From NCBI RefSeq assembly GCF_006349365.1, contig NZ_CP040899.1:1736001-1800000 (forward strand): 64,000 nt of DNA. Reading direction: 5' to 3'. Position numbers and translations under genes: made by a program. Under the pieces are notes generated by a model. It ran no database searches. It saw nothing but the letters and a program-made list of their open reading frames with translations, and was not told where the DNA came from. Below are positions 3,649 to 63,465 of this stretch, piece by piece; the first letter of the stretch is position 1; each line of letters begins with the position of its first letter. This DNA is from Georgenia wutianyii (lineage in GTDB: Bacteria; Actinomycetota; Actinomycetes; Actinomycetales; Actinomycetaceae).

Positions 3649-4496
3649 CGTTCACCGTCCGCGACGTCCGGCTCGCGGTCCGGGTCCGGCTCCGCGTCGC
3701 GGTCCGGCTCCGGCTGTACGTCTCGTTCCGGCCCCGCGTCGCGCTCCGGCTCCGGGTGCTGATCCGTCTCCGGCTCCGCGTCTCGGTCCGGCTGCGGCTC
3801 CGGCTCACCGTCCGGCGTCTGGAGCTGGGCTGTGGCGGCGTGGCGCCCCTCGTGGGACGTGGACCGGTCCGGTTCGGGCAACCGTGCCGCAGGCGGCCGG
3901 GGGGTGAACAGGACGGTGCGCGAGGCGATCCCGGCGAGGACGAGCACCGCGATGTCGCGCTCGGCGATCTCGATGGCGATGTCCCACCAGGCGTGGGGGT
4001 CGCCGCCGTGCCGGTCGGGTGAGACGAGGACGATGCCCTCGACGCCGTTGCGCAGGAGCGCGAGCTCGCACAGGATGCGCACGCGTGCGGCCGGCTCGAG
4101 GTTGCTCATCGGCAGCCGCACCGTGTCCCCCAGGCCCTGCTCCCGCAGCCACCGGCGGGCGCTGGCCGGACCGGAGCGCCACCGGGCGAACATGAGCTCC
4201 TCGGCGACGACGCCCGTCACCGAGACGTTCGGCTCCGGGGCCGAGACGTCGGGGGCGTCCACGAGCGCGACGCGGCGGCGCAGGGACCGTCTGTCCCGCT
4301 TCCCGTCGATGAGGACCGAGCCCGACTCCTGACGCATCCGCCCCGAGGCCAGCAGGCCCAGGACGGTGGGTCGCTGCTCGGTCTCGGCGATCTCGAGGGT
4401 GGCGTGCCCGGTCTCGAACGACAGGTCGGTGACCGGCAGCGCGTCCTGGCGTTGCCCCTTGGTCACCTGCTCCAGCTGGACGCGCACCGGGATCAC
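3645..4496 (-). CDS. Degenerate ABC-ATPase-like partner of the YhgE/Pip protein
   Basis: About 283 residues if the GTG at 4496 is the start; an ATG at 4583 and a GTG at 4592 are in-frame alternatives. The order of elements resembles an ABC ATPase: an N-terminal beta-rich region, then LGLLASGRMRQESGSVLIDG, which matches the segment after a Walker A loop, and GIVLVSPDRHGG where Walker B should be. The P-loop lysine, the LSGGQ signature and the Walker B glutamate are all missing, with ETEQRPT in the P-loop position, so ATP hydrolysis is unlikely. The last 55 residues are a low-complexity acidic tail of EPDRDAEP-like repeats. It overlaps the YhgE gene by four bases and probably serves as its cytosolic partner. 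Function is inferred from context. Confidence 0.6.
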   Translation of the reverse strand: MIPVRVQLEQVTKGQRQDALPVTDLSFETGHATLEIAETEQRPTVLGLLASGRMRQESGSVLIDGKRDRRSLRRRVALVDAPDVSAPEPNVSVTGVVAEELMFARWRSGPASARRWLREQGLGDTVRLPMSNLEPAARVRILCELALLRNGVEGIVLVSPDRHGGDPHAWWDIAIEIAERDIAVLVLAGIASRTVLFTPRPPAARLPEPDRSTSHEGRHAATAQLQTPDGEPEPQPDRDAEPETDQHPEPERDAGPERDVQPEPDRDAEPDPDREPDVADGER

Positions 4497-14779: not shown

Positions 14780-15146
14780 TGCCCGCAGCGGCACATCCTT
14801 CTACCGCGGTCAGGAACCATCCGACCAGTTGGGAGCCCATCGCCCGATTCGCTCGCCCCACGACACCGACGGGTTCGCTGACCGACTCGTTGCCTGAACG
14901 CACTCCACGGCCGCCATACGGGCTCTGCCCGACCATTCCGCCCAGCGGGCATCCGCCCGACCATTCCGCTCAGCGGGCATCCGCCCGACCATGCCGCCCA
15001 AGGTGCCGACCGTCGGCGCGCGACTGACCGATCATCGGACGGGTCGCGACCCTGGCAATCGTGTACGAGTCGCCAACATCGCCGTCCGCGCACGGCGACC
15101 GATTGTGGCCCCCGTCGGATCTCCACATACTCCTGGGCACGTCGCC
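14780..15146. other. Gene-free stretch between the HTH operon and the integrase, with a 28-bp tandem repeat
   Basis: No credible gene is visible in either strand of this 367-bp interval between the operators and the integrase start. It contains the 28-bp tandem repeat at 14927-15000, listed separately. The remainder shows no clear motif, although it must hold the integrase promoter and possibly recombinase arm sites. Confidence 0.6.
14927..15000. repeat. 28-bp tandem direct repeat, 2.6 copies
   Basis: Copies start at 14927, 14955 and 14983 with an exact 28-bp period. The unit begins GCCCGACCATTCCGCC and ends AGCGGGCATCC. Copies 1 and 2 differ at one base; copy 3 is truncated after 18 bases and carries one substitution. 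Each unit also has GCCCG at the start and CGGGC near the end, so it can form a small hairpin. The position about 150 bp before the integrase gene suits arm-type binding sites for a recombinase or excision factor, but that is inference. Confidence 0.8.
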
Positions 15147-28912: not shown

Positions 28913-29137
28913 ATGGGACTCGGAGACATGGCACGCAAGGCCAAGGACGCGCTCAGCGGCGAGCAGGACGAGCAGACCGGCGTCGACGGCGTCAACGCGG
29001 TCGGCACCGCCGGGGGCAGCGGGAAGACCTCGGGCAACACGACGGCCGGGGCCACGGAGCCGGGCCCGGCCGCGACCACCGGCCGCCACCGCGCCGACGG
29101 CGAGCCCGACGCCGGCACCGGCGACCACCGCGCCTGA
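28913..29137 (+). CDS. Small hydrophilic protein, possible MT0933-like antitoxin relative
   Basis: A 74-residue protein from ATG 28913 with a strong ribosome-binding site (CGAGGAGGAG, five bases of spacing), which makes expression credible. The N-terminus MGLGDMARKAKDALSGEQDE is an amphipathic helix resembling the start of MT0933-like antitoxins and related small stress proteins. The rest is a disordered Gly/Thr/Glu-rich tail. No toxin gene is next to it, so the antitoxin link is weak. It lies alone between parA (divergent) and xerD (convergent). Confidence 0.65.
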   Translation: MGLGDMARKAKDALSGEQDEQTGVDGVNAVGTAGGSGKTSGNTTAGATEPGPAATTGRHRADGEPDAGTGDHRA

Positions 29138-38044: not shown

Positions 38045-38977
38045 ATGATCACCACGATGCGCGCCACCACCGCCGCGGCCGTGAGCGCCCGGCTGTCCGC
38101 GATGCGCCGCTCCAGCGGAGCCCACACCTTCACCCGGGTGCTCACCCTCATCATCGTCGCCGACGACCTCGACGGCGCCGAGCGCGGGATCAAGGCAGCC
38201 AACGGCGCCTCCCGTGAGCACCCGTGCCGGATCATCGCCGTCGTCGCCGGCTCCGGGGACCGCCCGGCGACCATCGACGCGCAGATCCGGGTCGGCGGGG
38301 ACGCCGGCCTCAGCGAGGTCGTCATCCTCCAGCCGAGCGGCGAGCCGGCCGGCGCGATCGACACGCTCGTCATGCCGCTGCTCCTGCCCGACGCCCCGAT
38401 CGTCGTGTGGTGGACCGGCCAGCCGCCCGCCGAGCCGAGCAAGGACCCGCTCGGGGCGATGGCCCAGCGGCGGATCACCGACGTCACCGCCTGCACCGAC
38501 CCGCTCGCCACGCTGCGCTCCCTCGCCCCCGGCTACGCGCCGGGCGACACGGACCTCGCCTGGGCACGCGTCACGCTGTGGCGCGGCCTGCTCGCCGCGA
38601 CCCTCGACGAGCCGCCGCACGAGCCGATCACCGGGGTGCGCGTCGTCGGGGCCCACCGCCGCCCCTCGGTGTACATCCTCGCCGCGTGGCTCGCCGAGTC
38701 GCTCGGCGTGCCGGTGGAGATCGGCATCGAGGAGTCCAGTGCCGTCACCCGCGTCGAGCTCGACCGCGACCGCGGGCCGATCACACTGAGCCGTCGTCCC
38801 GGCGGCAACGTCGCCGTCCTCACCCGTCCCGGGCGCATCGACCAGCGCATCAACCTGCCCGAGCGCACGCTGGCCGACTGCCTCACCGAGGAGCTGCGCC
38901 GGCTCGACGCCGACGAGACCTACGGCCGTGTCCTCACCCAGGGCCTGGCCCTCGTCCAGGAGGCGGAGCAGCAGTGA
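38045..38977 (+). CDS. opcA: OpcA, glucose-6-phosphate dehydrogenase assembly protein
   Basis: A 310-residue protein of the OpcA family, with the N-terminal segment RVLTLIIVADDLDGAERGIK, the central PLLLPDAPIVVWWTGQPP and the C-terminal RKP-free repeat-like helices typical of actinobacterial members. OpcA binds and activates Zwf, in cyanobacteria by redox control. Its place between zwf and pgl is conserved across actinobacteria. The stop overlaps the GTG of pgl. Confidence 0.94.
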   Translation: MITTMRATTAAAVSARLSAMRRSSGAHTFTRVLTLIIVADDLDGAERGIKAANGASREHPCRIIAVVAGSGDRPATIDAQIRVGGDAGLSEVVILQPSGEPAGAIDTLVMPLLLPDAPIVVWWTGQPPAEPSKDPLGAMAQRRITDVTACTDPLATLRSLAPGYAPGDTDLAWARVTLWRGLLAATLDEPPHEPITGVRVVGAHRRPSVYILAAWLAESLGVPVEIGIEESSAVTRVELDRDRGPITLSRRPGGNVAVLTRPGRIDQRINLPERTLADCLTEELRRLDADETYGRVLTQGLALVQEAEQQ

Positions 38978-39762
38978 CGGCCACCGACCACACGCACGTC
39001 GTCGTCCACCCGGACGCCGACCTCCTCGCCCGTGCGACCGCGTCACGGTTCCTCCTCGCGCTGATCGACGCGCAGTCGGTGACGAGCCCGGTGCACGTCG
39101 CCCTCACGGGCGGCAGCATCCTCGTCGACACGCTGCGTGCGGTCGCCGCCGACCCGCTGCGCGACGCGGTGGACTGGACCTCGGTGCACGTGTGGTGGGG
39201 CGACGAACGGTTCGCGCCGCAGGGCCACCCCGACCGCAACGACGGCGACGCCCATGCCGCCCTGTTCTCCGCGGTCCCGCTGCCGCCCGAGAACATCCAC
39301 GCCGTCCCCGGTCCCGACCGGGTGGCCGACGTCGCCGCGGCCGCACGGGCCTACAGCGAGGAGCTGGAGCGCTACGCCCCGGAGGGGGCGCGGGTGCCCG
39401 AGCTCGCCGTCGTCCTCCTCGGGATGGGGCCGGACGGCCACGTCGCCTCCCTGTTCCCGGGCCGCCCGAGCCTCGACGTCGACGCGCTGGGCGCGCTGGC
39501 GGAGACGGACTCCCCCAAGCCGCCGCCCGAGCGCGTGAGCCTCACCCTGCCGACACTGTGCTCGGCCGACCAGGTGTGGCTCGTCGTGTCCGGCGAGGGC
39601 AAGGCGCCCGCCGTGGCCGCCGCGCTGGCCGGCACGTCGCTCCCGGAGTCCCAGGGAGGCACTGACGACGGCTCGAGCGTCCCCGCCGGCCGCGTCCACG
39701 CCCGCGGCCGCACCCTCTGGCTCCTCGACCTCCCGGCGACCACAGCCCTCCCCACCGCCTGA
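38974..39762 (+). CDS. pgl: 6-phosphogluconolactonase
   Basis: A 262-residue protein from GTG 38974, four bases into the opcA stop. The family motifs are VALTGGSILVDTLRAV, VHVWWGDERFAP and LLGMGPDGHVASLFPG, with the catalytic histidine in GHVASLFPG. It hydrolyses 6-phosphogluconolactone, the product of Zwf. It ends the operon; 15 bp after its stop the first 18-bp repeat array begins, and no conventional terminator is seen. Confidence 0.95.
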   Translation: MTATDHTHVVVHPDADLLARATASRFLLALIDAQSVTSPVHVALTGGSILVDTLRAVAADPLRDAVDWTSVHVWWGDERFAPQGHPDRNDGDAHAALFSAVPLPPENIHAVPGPDRVADVAAAARAYSEELERYAPEGARVPELAVVLLGMGPDGHVASLFPGRPSLDVDALGALAETDSPKPPPERVSLTLPTLCSADQVWLVVSGEGKAPAVAAALAGTSLPESQGGTDDGSSVPAGRVHARGRTLWLLDLPATTALPTA

Positions 39763-39776
39763 CTCTCCCTCCCCGC

Positions 39777-39920
39777 CGACAGCCGACTTCCGCCCGACAG
39801 CCGAGTTCCGCCCGACAGCGGGATTGCGCGCGACAGCCGACTTCCGCGCGACAGCGGGATTCCGCGCGACAGCGGACTTCCGCCCGACAGCGGGATTGCG
39901 CGCGACAGCGGACTTCCGCA
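39777..39920 (-). repeat. 18-bp tandem array, 8 units (locus A, left arm)
   Basis: Eight exact 18-bp units without spacers, 144 bp in total. On the plus strand the unit is CGACAGCCGACTTCCGCC with variants CGACAGCGGGATTGCGCG and CGACAGCGGACTTCCGCC. CGACAGC is unchanged in all eight. It lies just after pgl. The array reads open in several frames on both strands because 18 is a multiple of three, but no start, ribosome-binding site or conserved product supports translation. The right arm at 40032-40319 has the reverse-complement orientation. Confidence 0.95.
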
Positions 39921-40031
39921 CAGACTCCGACGTGTGCAGTGTCCGCTGCTAGGACTGAACGAGAAGTCGCCGCCACTATCTGCGAGACCAATGCAGATCC
40001 TGGGCATCAAGCGGCACAAGCGGCATCCCAG

Positions 40032-40319
40032 CCGGTAACTCCGCTTTCGCGAGAAACTCGGCCGTCGCGAGGAAGTCGGCTCTCGCGCACAAGTCGACTG
40101 TCGGGAGAAAGTCAGCTGTCGCGAGGAAGTCGGCTCTCGCGCACAAGTCGACTGTCGGGAGAAAGTCAGCTGTCGCGAGGAAGTCGGCTCTCGCGCACAA
40201 GTCGACTGTCGGGAGAAACTCGGCTGTCGCGAGGAAGTCGGCTCTCGCGCACAATCCCGCTGTCGGGAGAAACTCGGCTGTCGCGAGGAAGTCGGCTCTC
40301 GCGCACAAGTCGGCTGTCG
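40032..40319 (+). repeat. 18-bp tandem array, 16 units (locus A, right arm)
   Basis: Sixteen 18-bp units, 288 bp, the first degenerate. Types alternate in threes (CGAGGAAGTCGGCTCTCG, CGCACAAGTCGACTGTCG, GGAGAAAGTCAGCTGTCG), giving a higher-order 54-bp period that shows expansion by three-unit steps. The unit is the reverse complement of the left arm unit. The rare variant CGCACAATCCCGCTGTCG at 40248-40265 matches, in reverse complement, the left-arm variant at 17 of 18 bases. The 111-bp core between the arms (39921-40031) contains no gene or recognisable motif. Confidence 0.95.
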
Positions 40320-40426
40320 GCGGAGCTGGGGCGCGCGCGGGGTGGGCACTGGCCGGCAGCGGCGTTGCTGGCCGGGCAGGTGCTGCTGCGGGCGCGGGGT
40401 GGTTCCGCGCCCGCGGGCGTCGTGCT

Positions 40427-40792
40427 CTAGCGGTCGCGGGTGGAGACGCCGCTGCGGCGGGCGCGGAGGGCGGTGAGCGCCTCCTCCAGCAGGGCCTCGC
40501 CGTCGGCGTCGGTGCGCCGCTCCTTCACGTAGGCCAGGTGGGTCTTGTAGGGCTCGTTCTTCGGCGCCTCGGGCGGCGCCTCACGGTCCTGCCCGGCGGG
40601 CAGCCCGCAGCGCGGGCAGTCCCAGGTCTCCGGGATGACGATCTCCGGCTCCTTGGCGAAGCTCGGACGCGTCTCGTGCGCGTTCGCGCACCAGTAGGAC
40701 ACCCGGACCCGCGGCGCCGCCTCACCGCGCTCCGTCTCGCCCATGGGCCCTGCCCCGACCCGCGAGCCGCGGATCGCGCTACCTCCAGCCAT
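40427..40792 (-). CDS. rbpA: RNA polymerase-binding protein RbpA
   Basis: A 121-residue protein matching the actinobacterial RbpA pattern. The N-terminal tail has AIRGSRVGAGPMGETERGEAA (the sigma/promoter-contacting stretch has SRVG), followed by the core domain CANAHETRPSFAKEPEIVIP, a CPRCG zinc-ribbon-like pair, and the sigma-interaction helix EALLEEALTALRARR. RbpA stabilises the open complex of housekeeping RNA polymerase and is unique to actinobacteria. It is next to secG and is convergent with pgl across the repeat locus. Confidence 0.93.
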   Translation of the reverse strand: MAGGSAIRGSRVGAGPMGETERGEAAPRVRVSYWCANAHETRPSFAKEPEIVIPETWDCPRCGLPAGQDREAPPEAPKNEPYKTHLAYVKERRTDADGEALLEEALTALRARRSGVSTRDR

Positions 40793-40807
40793 GTCCCTCT
40801 CCCCCGC

Positions 40808-41050
40808 TCAGACGAACCGCTGCATCAGGCCGAGCAGCACGATGACCGTCGCCCAGATGACCGAGATGCCGATGGTGATGCGGTTGAGGTTCCGCTCAGC
40901 CACACCCGAGGAGCCGATCGAGGAGCTGATGCCACCACCGAACATGTCCGACAGGCCACCGCCCTTCCCCTTGTGCATGAGAATGGACAGGATGAGGAAG
41001 ATGCTGGTGAGAACCAGCACCACCTGCAGGGCGATCCGGAGTGCATCCAC
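40808..41050 (-). CDS. secG: Preprotein translocase subunit SecG
   Basis: An 80-residue membrane protein from GTG 41050, preceded by AAAGGAG at ten bases; a longer ATG start at 41098 would add an unlikely basic extension. Two helices (LRIALQVVLVLTSIFLILSI and ITIGISVIWATVIVLLGLM) flank the conserved cytosolic loop HKGKGGGLSDMFGGG, the SecG signature. SecG aids SecYE during protein export. The position after tpiA is conserved in many Gram-positives. Confidence 0.95.
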   Translation of the reverse strand: MDALRIALQVVLVLTSIFLILSILMHKGKGGGLSDMFGGGISSSIGSSGVAERNLNRITIGISVIWATVIVLLGLMQRFV

Positions 41051-62095: not shown

Positions 62096-62218
62096 GAGGT
62101 ACTCCCTGGGTCTGTGGGGAAAGGACGAGTGTGATTCCGACGACAACACTATCCATGCACATCACACACCTCACCCACCCGAGGTCCCAGACCGCTTCTC
62201 CCCGTCCCCCTTCACCCG

Positions 62219-62343
62219 CGACAGCCGACTTCTGCGCGAGAGCCGAGTTGCTCGCGACAGCCGACTTCTGCGCGAGAGCCGACTTCTGCGCGAGAGCCGA
62301 GTTGCTCGCGACAGCGACTTCTGCGCGAGAGCCGACTTCTGGA
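62219..62343 (-). repeat. 18-bp tandem array, 7 units (locus B, left arm)
   Basis: Seven units of the same family as locus A: CGACAGCCGACTTCTGCG, CGAGAGCCGAGTTGCTCG and CGAGAGCCGACTTCTGCG. Unit 6 is one base short and unit 7 ends in GGA. The orientation is the same as the locus A left arm. The array lies between the 3' end of the methyltransferase gene and the upstream region of pfkA. CGAGAG and CTTCTGCG variants are shared with the right arm at 63244 but not with locus A left. Confidence 0.93.
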
Positions 62344-62367: not shown

Positions 62368-63162
62368 TCAGCGGGGAAGGTGCGTGACGAAGATGGCGGT
62401 GCCGGGCACGTACCGGCCGCGGTGAGGTCCCCACCCGCCCCAGACCTGGAGGTTCCCCTCCTGCCACTCCGGCTCGACGACGTCGTCGATCACCAGGCCG
62501 GCCGCCGCCACCTCGCGGACGTGGTCTCCGAACGTGCGGTGGTACTCCGCGTACAGCGGTGCGCCGGCGTCGTCGGTCTCGACGTAGGGCGTGCGGTCGA
62601 AGTACGAGCGCAGGACCCGCATCCCCTCGGGGGACGGATCGTCGGGGAAGATCCACCGCACGGGGTGGACGACGGCGAAGACCCAGCGCCCGCCGGGCCG
62701 CAGGACCCGGGCAACCTCGGCGTGCACCCGCTGGGCGTCAGGCACGAAGGGAATCGCGCCGAACGCCGTGAAGGCGACGTCGAAGGAGTCGTCGGCGAGC
62801 GGGAGGGCCCGGGCGTCCGCCACGACGGCGGGCACTCGCCGGCCGGTGCGCCGGTCCAGCTCGGCCGACTGTGCCACCATCCCGGGCGCGATGTCCGTGG
62901 CGAGGACATCAGCGCCGCGCCCCGCCAGCCAACGTGAGCACTGCCCAGCGCCCGCGCCGACCTCGAGCACGCGCAGGCCCTCGACGTCGCCGAGGAGCCG
63001 CGCGTCCTCCTCGCGCAGGCCCTCGGGACACCAGCGGAAGTCCGCGTCCCCGAGGAACGCCCCGTGCTCGTCGATGTACTCGCCCGCGTTCTCGCTCCAC
63101 CACCTGCCGTTCGCCCGCGCCGCCGCTGCAGCATCGACGTCGTAGAACCCCACGCGACTCAT
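62368..63162 (-). CDS. Class I SAM-dependent methyltransferase enclosed by inverted repeat arrays
   Basis: A 264-residue Methyltransf_11-type enzyme from ATG 63162. It has motif I LRVLEVGAGAGQCSRWLAG, motif II VLATDIAPGM, motif III VVADARALPLADDSFDVAFT and the post-motif VARVLRPGGRWVFAV. The N-terminal GRWWSENAGEYIDEHG and the C-terminal WGGWGPHRGRYVPGT are recognisable in an actinobacterial family of unknown substrate. It stands alone between pfkA and polA, with an 18-bp repeat array on each side in opposite orientation, which suggests that the gene and arrays form one unit. Confidence 0.9.
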   Translation of the reverse strand: MSRVGFYDVDAAAAARANGRWWSENAGEYIDEHGAFLGDADFRWCPEGLREEDARLLGDVEGLRVLEVGAGAGQCSRWLAGRGADVLATDIAPGMVAQSAELDRRTGRRVPAVVADARALPLADDSFDVAFTAFGAIPFVPDAQRVHAEVARVLRPGGRWVFAVVHPVRWIFPDDPSPEGMRVLRSYFDRTPYVETDDAGAPLYAEYHRTFGDHVREVAAAGLVIDDVVEPEWQEGNLQVWGGWGPHRGRYVPGTAIFVTHLPR

Positions 63163-63243: not shown

Positions 63244-63405
63244 TGCAGAAGTCGGCTGTCGCGCGGAAGTCCGCTCTCGCGCAGAACTCGGCTGTCGTGC
63301 GGAAGTCCGCTCTCGCGCGGAAGTCCGCTCTCGCGCGGAAGTCGGCTCTCGCGCGGAAGTCCGCTCTCGCGCAGAAGTCCGCTCTCGCGCGGAACTCGGC
63401 TGTCG
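63244..63405 (+). repeat. 18-bp tandem array, 9 units (locus B, right arm)
   Basis: Nine exact 18-bp units, 162 bp: CGCGGAAGTCCGCTCTCG, CGCAGAAGTCCGCTCTCG, CGCGGAACTCGGCTGTCG and close variants. All have GAASTCSGCTSTCG in common. The orientation matches the locus A right arm and is opposite to the locus B left arm. It lies between the methyltransferase start and the polA stop, 61 bp from the latter. The frame encoding KSALAR repeats is open but has no start signal. Confidence 0.95.
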
Positions 63406-63465
63406 GCGCGGGGAACCCAGACCGCCCCCGTGTGGATGGGGGCGGGTGTGGGCGGCGGCGGGTGG

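Follow-up and report, generated by a model that had tools for sequence, protein, structure and literature searches.

A genus-specific family of extragenic palindromic repeats in Georgenia and its possible role as a two-way transcription block

Dispersed intergenic tandem repeats of variable copy number are familiar from an actinobacterium as MIRU-VNTR loci, and a C-rich, G-poor tract 3' of stop codons is characteristic of Rho utilisation (rut) sites. Closer in form are the REP, REPIN and BIME elements, which PMC8049555 describes as short extragenic palindromic repeats that are present in many copies, form inverted pairs capable of folding into hairpins and are amplified locally in tandem; REPINs are there called the only stably maintained intragenomic sequence population in prokaryotes known to its authors. 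In addition, I-shaped hairpins have been described in Mycobacterium, where their action as terminators is contested (PMC5335608).

Here an 18-bp repeat family of Georgenia wutianyii is described, together with one of its members, locus A, which lies between two converging genes. The family is real, specific to the genus and of the extragenic palindromic repeat kind, and a search of the open-access literature found no paper on it. MIRU-VNTR loci differ from it, when compared by description and not by sequence, in their longer units and in having no inverted partner arms. As at rut sites, a C-rich, G-poor tract follows stop codons; however, the Georgenia tract is attached to a conserved repeat and is antisense nearly as often as sense. 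With the REP/REPIN/BIME elements, as PMC8049555 portrays them, the family shares short extragenic palindromic repeats, inverted hairpin pairs and tandem amplification. It differs from them in that the Georgenia arrays are tandem half-palindromes with an 18-bp step, that the halves face each other around whole genes with the C-rich tract on the outer side, and that the Y1 transposase, a defining feature of REPINs, was found in none of six genus genomes. An I-shaped (U-less) terminator, in the account of PMC5335608, is also a 3'-end hairpin without a U-tract, whereas the Georgenia sequence is fixed across about a hundred loci, has arms built of tandem units and includes many unpartnered halves.

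Anatomy of locus A and of the repeat family

Locus A was found in the window, by which is meant the whole 64,000-nucleotide stretch of chromosome that was analysed. From the left it is approached by pgl (6-phosphogluconolactonase; 38971-39762, plus strand, with PF01182 on the longer frame 38224-39762) and from the right by rbpA (RNA polymerase-binding protein; 40427-40792, minus strand, PF13397). A C-rich, G-poor tract (39763-39775, plus strand), of a type that is general for the family, separates the left array from the stop codon of pgl. The left array (L; 39776-39919, plus strand) holds eight units of 18 bp according to both TRF (8.0 copies) and unit chaining, and is followed by a 111-bp core without a called gene (39921-40031) and by the right array (R; 40032-40319, minus strand), which consists of inverse units. 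The extent of the right array depends on the method (40043-40319 and 15.4 copies by TRF, 40036-40319 and 16 units by unit chaining), and the tract on its outer side is poor. The sequence-only reading from which this work started had described eight left and sixteen right units around the core, oppositely oriented, with a 54-bp higher-order period in the right arm, and all of this was borne out: the arms are inverse repeats, with a complementarity of 72-84% in the long pairs listed, and the 54-bp period spans 40047-40320 with 5.1 copies and 94% match. In the interval 39000-41000 no Rfam family was found above its gathering score (MIR8622 scored 36.5 bits vs 197). Two other tandem repeats of the window, at 14919-15000 and 3666-3816, have unrelated units with periods of 28 bp and 42 bp.

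Locus A is a member of a dispersed repeat family. The 16-mer GAASTCSGCTSTCGCG occurs 279 times without mismatch in the 3,454,625-base chromosome (130 forward and 149 reverse copies), whereas the reversed control of the degenerate 16-mer has no copy in the whole genome; a two-unit pattern with at most two mismatches has 303 and 292 overlapping places on the two strands. The stretches around the listed matches, 716,953 bases including the window, were read, having been chosen for holding matches; within 2.49-3.02 Mb, a blind sample of 300 kb was read. Unit chaining in the stretches gave 108 arrays, ten of which were dropped before counting, so that each of the 98 that were kept either includes an exact unit or is four or more units long. 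These hold 1 to 16 units each (mean 6.8), and at least 76 intergenic gaps of the genome carry arrays of the 18-bp repeat.

Among the 592 units of arrays with at least four units, positions 1-3, 5-7, 9, 10, 12 and 13 are 95-100% constant, figures that are inflated because the acceptance rule allowed each unit as many as three mismatches to the pattern, and variation at positions 4, 8 and 11 is almost only between C and G. Units of the same array differ by 1.13 mismatches per pair and units of different arrays by 2.44, which indicates that arrays expand locally and upholds the stepwise expansion that had been read from the 54-bp period. It had also been proposed that the two arms of locus A exchanged sequence or had one origin. 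The rare GGGATT variant is indeed present in both, three times on the left (39818, 39854, 39890) and once on the right (40253), and this unit type was met in only 5 of 644 sampled units, four of the five being at locus A. When all units are compared, however, the arms differ by 2.44 mismatches, at the 53rd percentile of random arrays, and their overall likeness is thus at random level. The rare variant, as the sole support, is suggestive of exchange that may have taken place between the arms.

In the 20 nt before an array (read in the L direction) C makes up 66% and G 13.5%, as against 36% C and 38% G in the 20 nt after it (98 arrays). Tracts with at most one G precede 35 of the 98 arrays, compared with 0.14% of 85,710 control 20-mers, and before 22 arrays of the sister genome G002 the composition is similar (61% C, 17.5% G). 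Sister species whose gaps are empty at the truB and methyltransferase sites show, as read by eye, no such tract there, which suggests that it is part of the element. A half-element is made up of the C-rich, G-poor tract and, after it, an 18-bp half-palindrome repeated in tandem. At chromosome positions 3098393 and 3098569 (L077) two short R arrays have a common inner flank, a 40-bp stretch with TCGTCTGGGACGCAC; a stretch resembling it occurs in a gap of G003, and a second dispersed repeat may therefore exist.

Gene context and orientation of the arrays

When placed against genes called by a home-made codon-usage caller, 93 of the 98 arrays lie in gaps, one has no called neighbour and four lie inside called genes; being extragenic in many copies is likewise a trait of the REPIN/RAYT system. 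The four in-gene arrays (L038, L045, L055 and L073, at chromosome positions 336435, 693052, 1239765 and 2465031) have 2 to 10 units and their C-rich tract, and would encode a repeated hexapeptide. In G002 eleven arrays fall within called ORFs, perhaps frames through the repeats, and were left out of the position table of that genome. An RbpA-like frame with one TGA stop (L090, chromosome 1646758-1647111) adjoins an L array at 1646596.

The 93 arrays are distributed over 76 gaps, comprising 39 co-directional, 32 convergent and 5 divergent ones. Background gaps of at least 20 bp, from the blind 300 kb and the window, number 129, 28 and 41, respectively, and for convergent against divergent gaps the odds ratio is 9.4 (P = 4e-6). 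In this background sample 10 of 198 gaps bear arrays, namely 9 of the 129 co-directional gaps, one of the 28 convergent and none of the 41 divergent ones; within its blind 300 kb, each of the seven gaps with arrays is co-directional and none convergent. Avoidance of promoter-bearing (divergent) gaps is hence consistent across the samples, whereas the preference for convergent gaps comes from the set chosen by matches. A stop codon lies within 60 nt of 66 of the 93 arrays and, in co-directional gaps, the stop is nearer than the following start for 36 of 44 arrays (median distances 29 nt and 112.5 nt, respectively). Array orientation does not follow the direction of transcription: the co-directional gaps contain 19 sense arrays, 15 antisense arrays, 3 LR pairs and 2 RL pairs. 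On inspection of the chromosome by tenths, no bias of orientation was evident.

Neighbouring kept arrays up to 6 kb apart form 29 LR, 5 RL, 1 LL and 2 RR pairs, and where exactly one gene lies between two arrays the arrangement is L-gene-R in 12 of 13 cases; the remaining R-gene-R case adjoins a compact LR pair, and the outermost arms there are also facing. G002 has seven LR pairs, one LL pair and one RL pair, the latter with arms 26 bp apart. Of the five RL pairs in this genome, four have arms that lie 24-31 bp apart. These compact R-L pairs (chromosome 74772, 870826, 1971007 and 2101139; L032, L049, L064 and L067) have a geometry opposite to that of locus A, and their centre is itself a G-rich / C-rich inverted repeat.

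The sequence-only reading had treated the paired arms as one symmetrical element, to be abandoned if arrays proved to be single and randomly oriented. The first half of this applies, in that 60 of the 93 arrays are unpartnered within their gap and a single array is present in 21 of 32 convergent and 34 of 39 co-directional gaps, so that the symmetrical element is not obligatory. The second half does not: since 12 of the 13 single-gene pairs face, orientation is not random. This facing rule is the family's most surprising feature.

Partner arms were no more alike than random arrays among 11 close pairs (p = 0.96) or the four RL pairs (p = 0.94), nor were they so among 16 pairs around genes (p = 0.08), and partner tracts were no more alike than expected (p = 0.28). 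Copying of arms from each other as a rule is therefore unsupported. Fold-back copying as the origin of the brackets would explain the outer position of the tract but is countered by the unlike partner arms.

Dialects, sites and bracketed genes in sister species

None of 58 relatives, five of them genus genomes, has the exact 16-mer, and the two-unit pattern is likewise missing from the named genome collection, from which the window's own genome may be left out. With a relaxed motif, CGACAGCYSRVTTS, 238 matches were obtained in this genome, 176 in G002, 107 in G004 and 59 in G001, as against at most six in every other of 297 genomes of the order, a draw that did not include G003 and G005; the reversed control gave up to seven. 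By this search of the order the family appears to be confined to the genus, and it was found in all six genus genomes examined. Species-specific sequence dialects are clear: for an 18-bp two-unit motif, G002 gave 293 places, G005 112, G001 49, G003 2 and G004 1, and the dialect of G003 and G004 is CGACAGCCGGATTCCTCC, often in compact palindromes or with longer periods. Some of the elements of sister species are compact palindromes that are nearly perfect. The search for the latter motif gave one further match, in a Bryobacterales MAG.

Some sites are shared and others are not. Each of the five species examined has inverted arms on the 3' side of rbpA, with pgl as the other neighbour in four of them; the G002 contig starts there with other sequence. 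The gene for an MgsA/RarA-type ATPase (Pfam) lies between an L array and an R array. The strict motif shows this for G001, G002 and this genome, and a relaxed motif, here used without a control, together with reading by eye shows it for all five species. Conversely, element sites differ between sister species, some being filled here and empty in sisters, as in the gap between the methyltransferase gene and polA, which is 303 bp and filled here but 19-29 bp and empty in four sisters. Concerted evolution at common sites was no more than a trend (p = 0.08, with rows that are not independent); mismatches were 3.92 for different sites of the same species vs 4.96 for the same site in other species.

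These data bear on the idea that the arrays are selfish repeats without a host role, spread by an enzyme or through slippage and fold-back during replication, and tolerated only 3' of stop codons, where the damage would be smallest. An exact unit present 279 times here and absent from five genus genomes, sites that vary between sisters, the avoidance of divergent gaps and local expansion within arrays would all be in keeping with it. A means of spreading was looked for in the genus: RAYT (Y1_Tnp, PF01797) was found in none of the six genomes, one of which is 57% complete, whereas the PF01797 control was positive in 5 of 14 genomes, E. coli included, and the only reverse transcriptase match among the six is G004:C109:188320-188709. 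RAYT and reverse transcriptase as spreaders are thus unsupported. Moreover, a bracket seen in five species, facing pairs and fitting arms (see below) are not expected from neglect, and we regard a purely selfish family as possible but rather unlikely.

A second pair in the window shows a gene between facing arms. Between pfkA and polA, an L array (62217-62341, plus strand) and an R array (63248-63411, minus strand), both detected by TRF and unit chaining, enclose a methyltransferase gene (62368-63162, minus strand, PF08241). Like truB and mgsA/rarA, this gene has the same place and gene order in sisters, and a mobile cassette that carries cargo is accordingly rejected where it was checked. As to the suggestion that locus A is the remnant of a mobile element, no Y1 transposase was found in the genus genomes, and the checked genes between arms are native, their order being kept in relatives.

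In G005, however, the methyltransferase gene is inverted between polA and pfkA. A second flip concerns a small gene at window positions 28913-29137 (about 75 codons here, about 113 in sisters), which is on the strand opposite to that in G001, G003 and G004 between identical neighbours; its counterpart is bracketed by L and R halves in G001 and lies beside L halves in G003 and G004. It could be supposed that facing arms are recombination substrates and the bracketed single genes invertible cassettes. Strand was kept in 265 unbracketed gene triples compared with sisters (2 unclear, none flipped) and changed in 1 of 12 comparisons of four bracketed genes, numbers that are small and partly selected, and bracketed genes occupy either strand (six plus, six minus), all of which inversion would accommodate. 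Against it, neither flipped copy, the methyltransferase gene in G005 or the small gene here, has arms at the site now, so that the arms may be bystanders; the methyltransferase gene was chosen for inspection because it is bracketed, the small gene is below the size filter of the triple comparison, and G005 is a draft that is 57% complete. R-gene-L pairs could invert too, yet none was seen, which leaves the facing unexplained. We consider inversion an improbable account of the brackets.

RNA folding and a candidate two-way transcription block

The RNA of locus A is predicted to fold with -340.9 kcal/mol, compared with a mean of -247.6 for 100 shuffled sequences (z -13.0). Four arrays folded singly gave z-scores of -2.2, -1.4, -0.1 and -0.7, and two sister palindromes gave -9.1 and -8.0; in the predicted folds of the latter the C-rich tract is paired with a G-rich tract on the far side. 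In these models single arms fold weakly and both arms together very strongly. In total 31 compact palindromes were collected (16 in G003, 9 in G004, 4 in G000 and 2 in G001, hence 27 in sisters), the G003 and G004 loci being partly chosen by exact motif match. Each consists of two inverted halves with a short spacer and can form a hairpin, as is typical of the REPIN/RAYT system; in this genome such compact pairs are a minority of the arrays. Their arms match their own partners at 18.7 of 21 positions, against 17.2 of 21 when swapped within species (p = 0.0002), and their outer tracts have no partner-specific fit (p = 0.22).

No U-tract terminator (a GC-rich hairpin followed by a run of T) was predicted in 39500-40900, with 0.4 in shuffled sequences. 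Stems of 10 bp or longer were counted in the gaps of five species. Without the element, 13 of 29 convergent and 3 of 49 divergent gaps have such a stem; with it, 6 of the 8 convergent gaps do, and 5 of the 15 co-directional ones. The convergent gap at 1759099 has a plain GC hairpin in this genome and the element in three sisters. The stem counts and this gap suggest that the element occupies sites where terminator hairpins stand, without a U-tract.

Locus A had been compared with a cruciform-forming or hairpin end structure between converging genes. Its 3'-end position, its arms that fold together and the compact palindromes of sister species fit such a structure, although for the family at large the symmetrical pair is not obligatory. 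Our best explanation is that locus A is a paired, genus-specific extragenic palindromic repeat whose facing halves would act as a two-way transcription block, a reading to which we give slightly less than even confidence. The family as a whole would then consist of RAYT-less extragenic palindromic repeats that stop transcription in either direction. A polymerase arriving from the left or from the right would transcribe one arm and then the other, and the two arms of the transcript could pair into an I-shaped hairpin, with a stem of great length and no U-tract; alternatively, the unstructured C-rich tract might recruit Rho. In both cases transcription would end before it reached the next gene, and any gene enclosed by facing halves would be protected on each side. 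The compact palindrome is possibly ancestral, and the halves may have expanded locally in this lineage by 18 bp at a time and here and there by 54 bp.

A two-way block agrees with the position of the arrays at 3' ends, close to stops, and with their excess in convergent over divergent gaps. It is further favoured by the strong predicted folds of locus A and of the sister palindromes, whose arms fit their own partners, and probably by the plain GC hairpin that stands in for the element at gap 1759099, the stems of element-free convergent gaps and the C-rich tract before arrays, similar in G002. Several observations argue against it. Array orientation is not tied to transcription, most arrays are unpartnered in their gap, and the array gaps of the blind sample are all co-directional. 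A U-tract terminator is not predicted at locus A, and the action of U-less hairpins as terminators is contested (PMC5335608). Partner tracts appear to lack a specific fit, and a terminator would need no fixed unit, yet the units seem strongly conserved, even if the acceptance rule inflates their constancy.

Such a strict unit with a fixed 18-bp step, and with variation almost only between C and G at three positions, might instead point to putative binding sites of a sequence-specific protein that loops or marks gene ends, the facing pairs, which are spaced by about 0.5-2.7 kb, being loop anchors. No protein is known for this, dialects differ between sisters so that the protein would have to change too, and the fitting arms of the compact palindromes are indicative of a hairpin; we hold protein binding to be improbable.

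A wider view would see in the half-palindromes a second kind of long-lived repeat population in prokaryotic genomes, RAYT-independent and made of growing 18-bp arrays with drifting dialects, whose facing turns native genes into insulated, flippable cassettes. We think this unlikely as a whole. Overall, the family lacks a detectable Y1 transposase, and at some of its loci place and orientation persist despite sequence change; the small clade makes the copying and upkeep of such repeats a testable question. If facing pairs do insulate, they would be a natural two-sided transcription barrier; if they flip genes, they would be an unexpected source of gene inversions.
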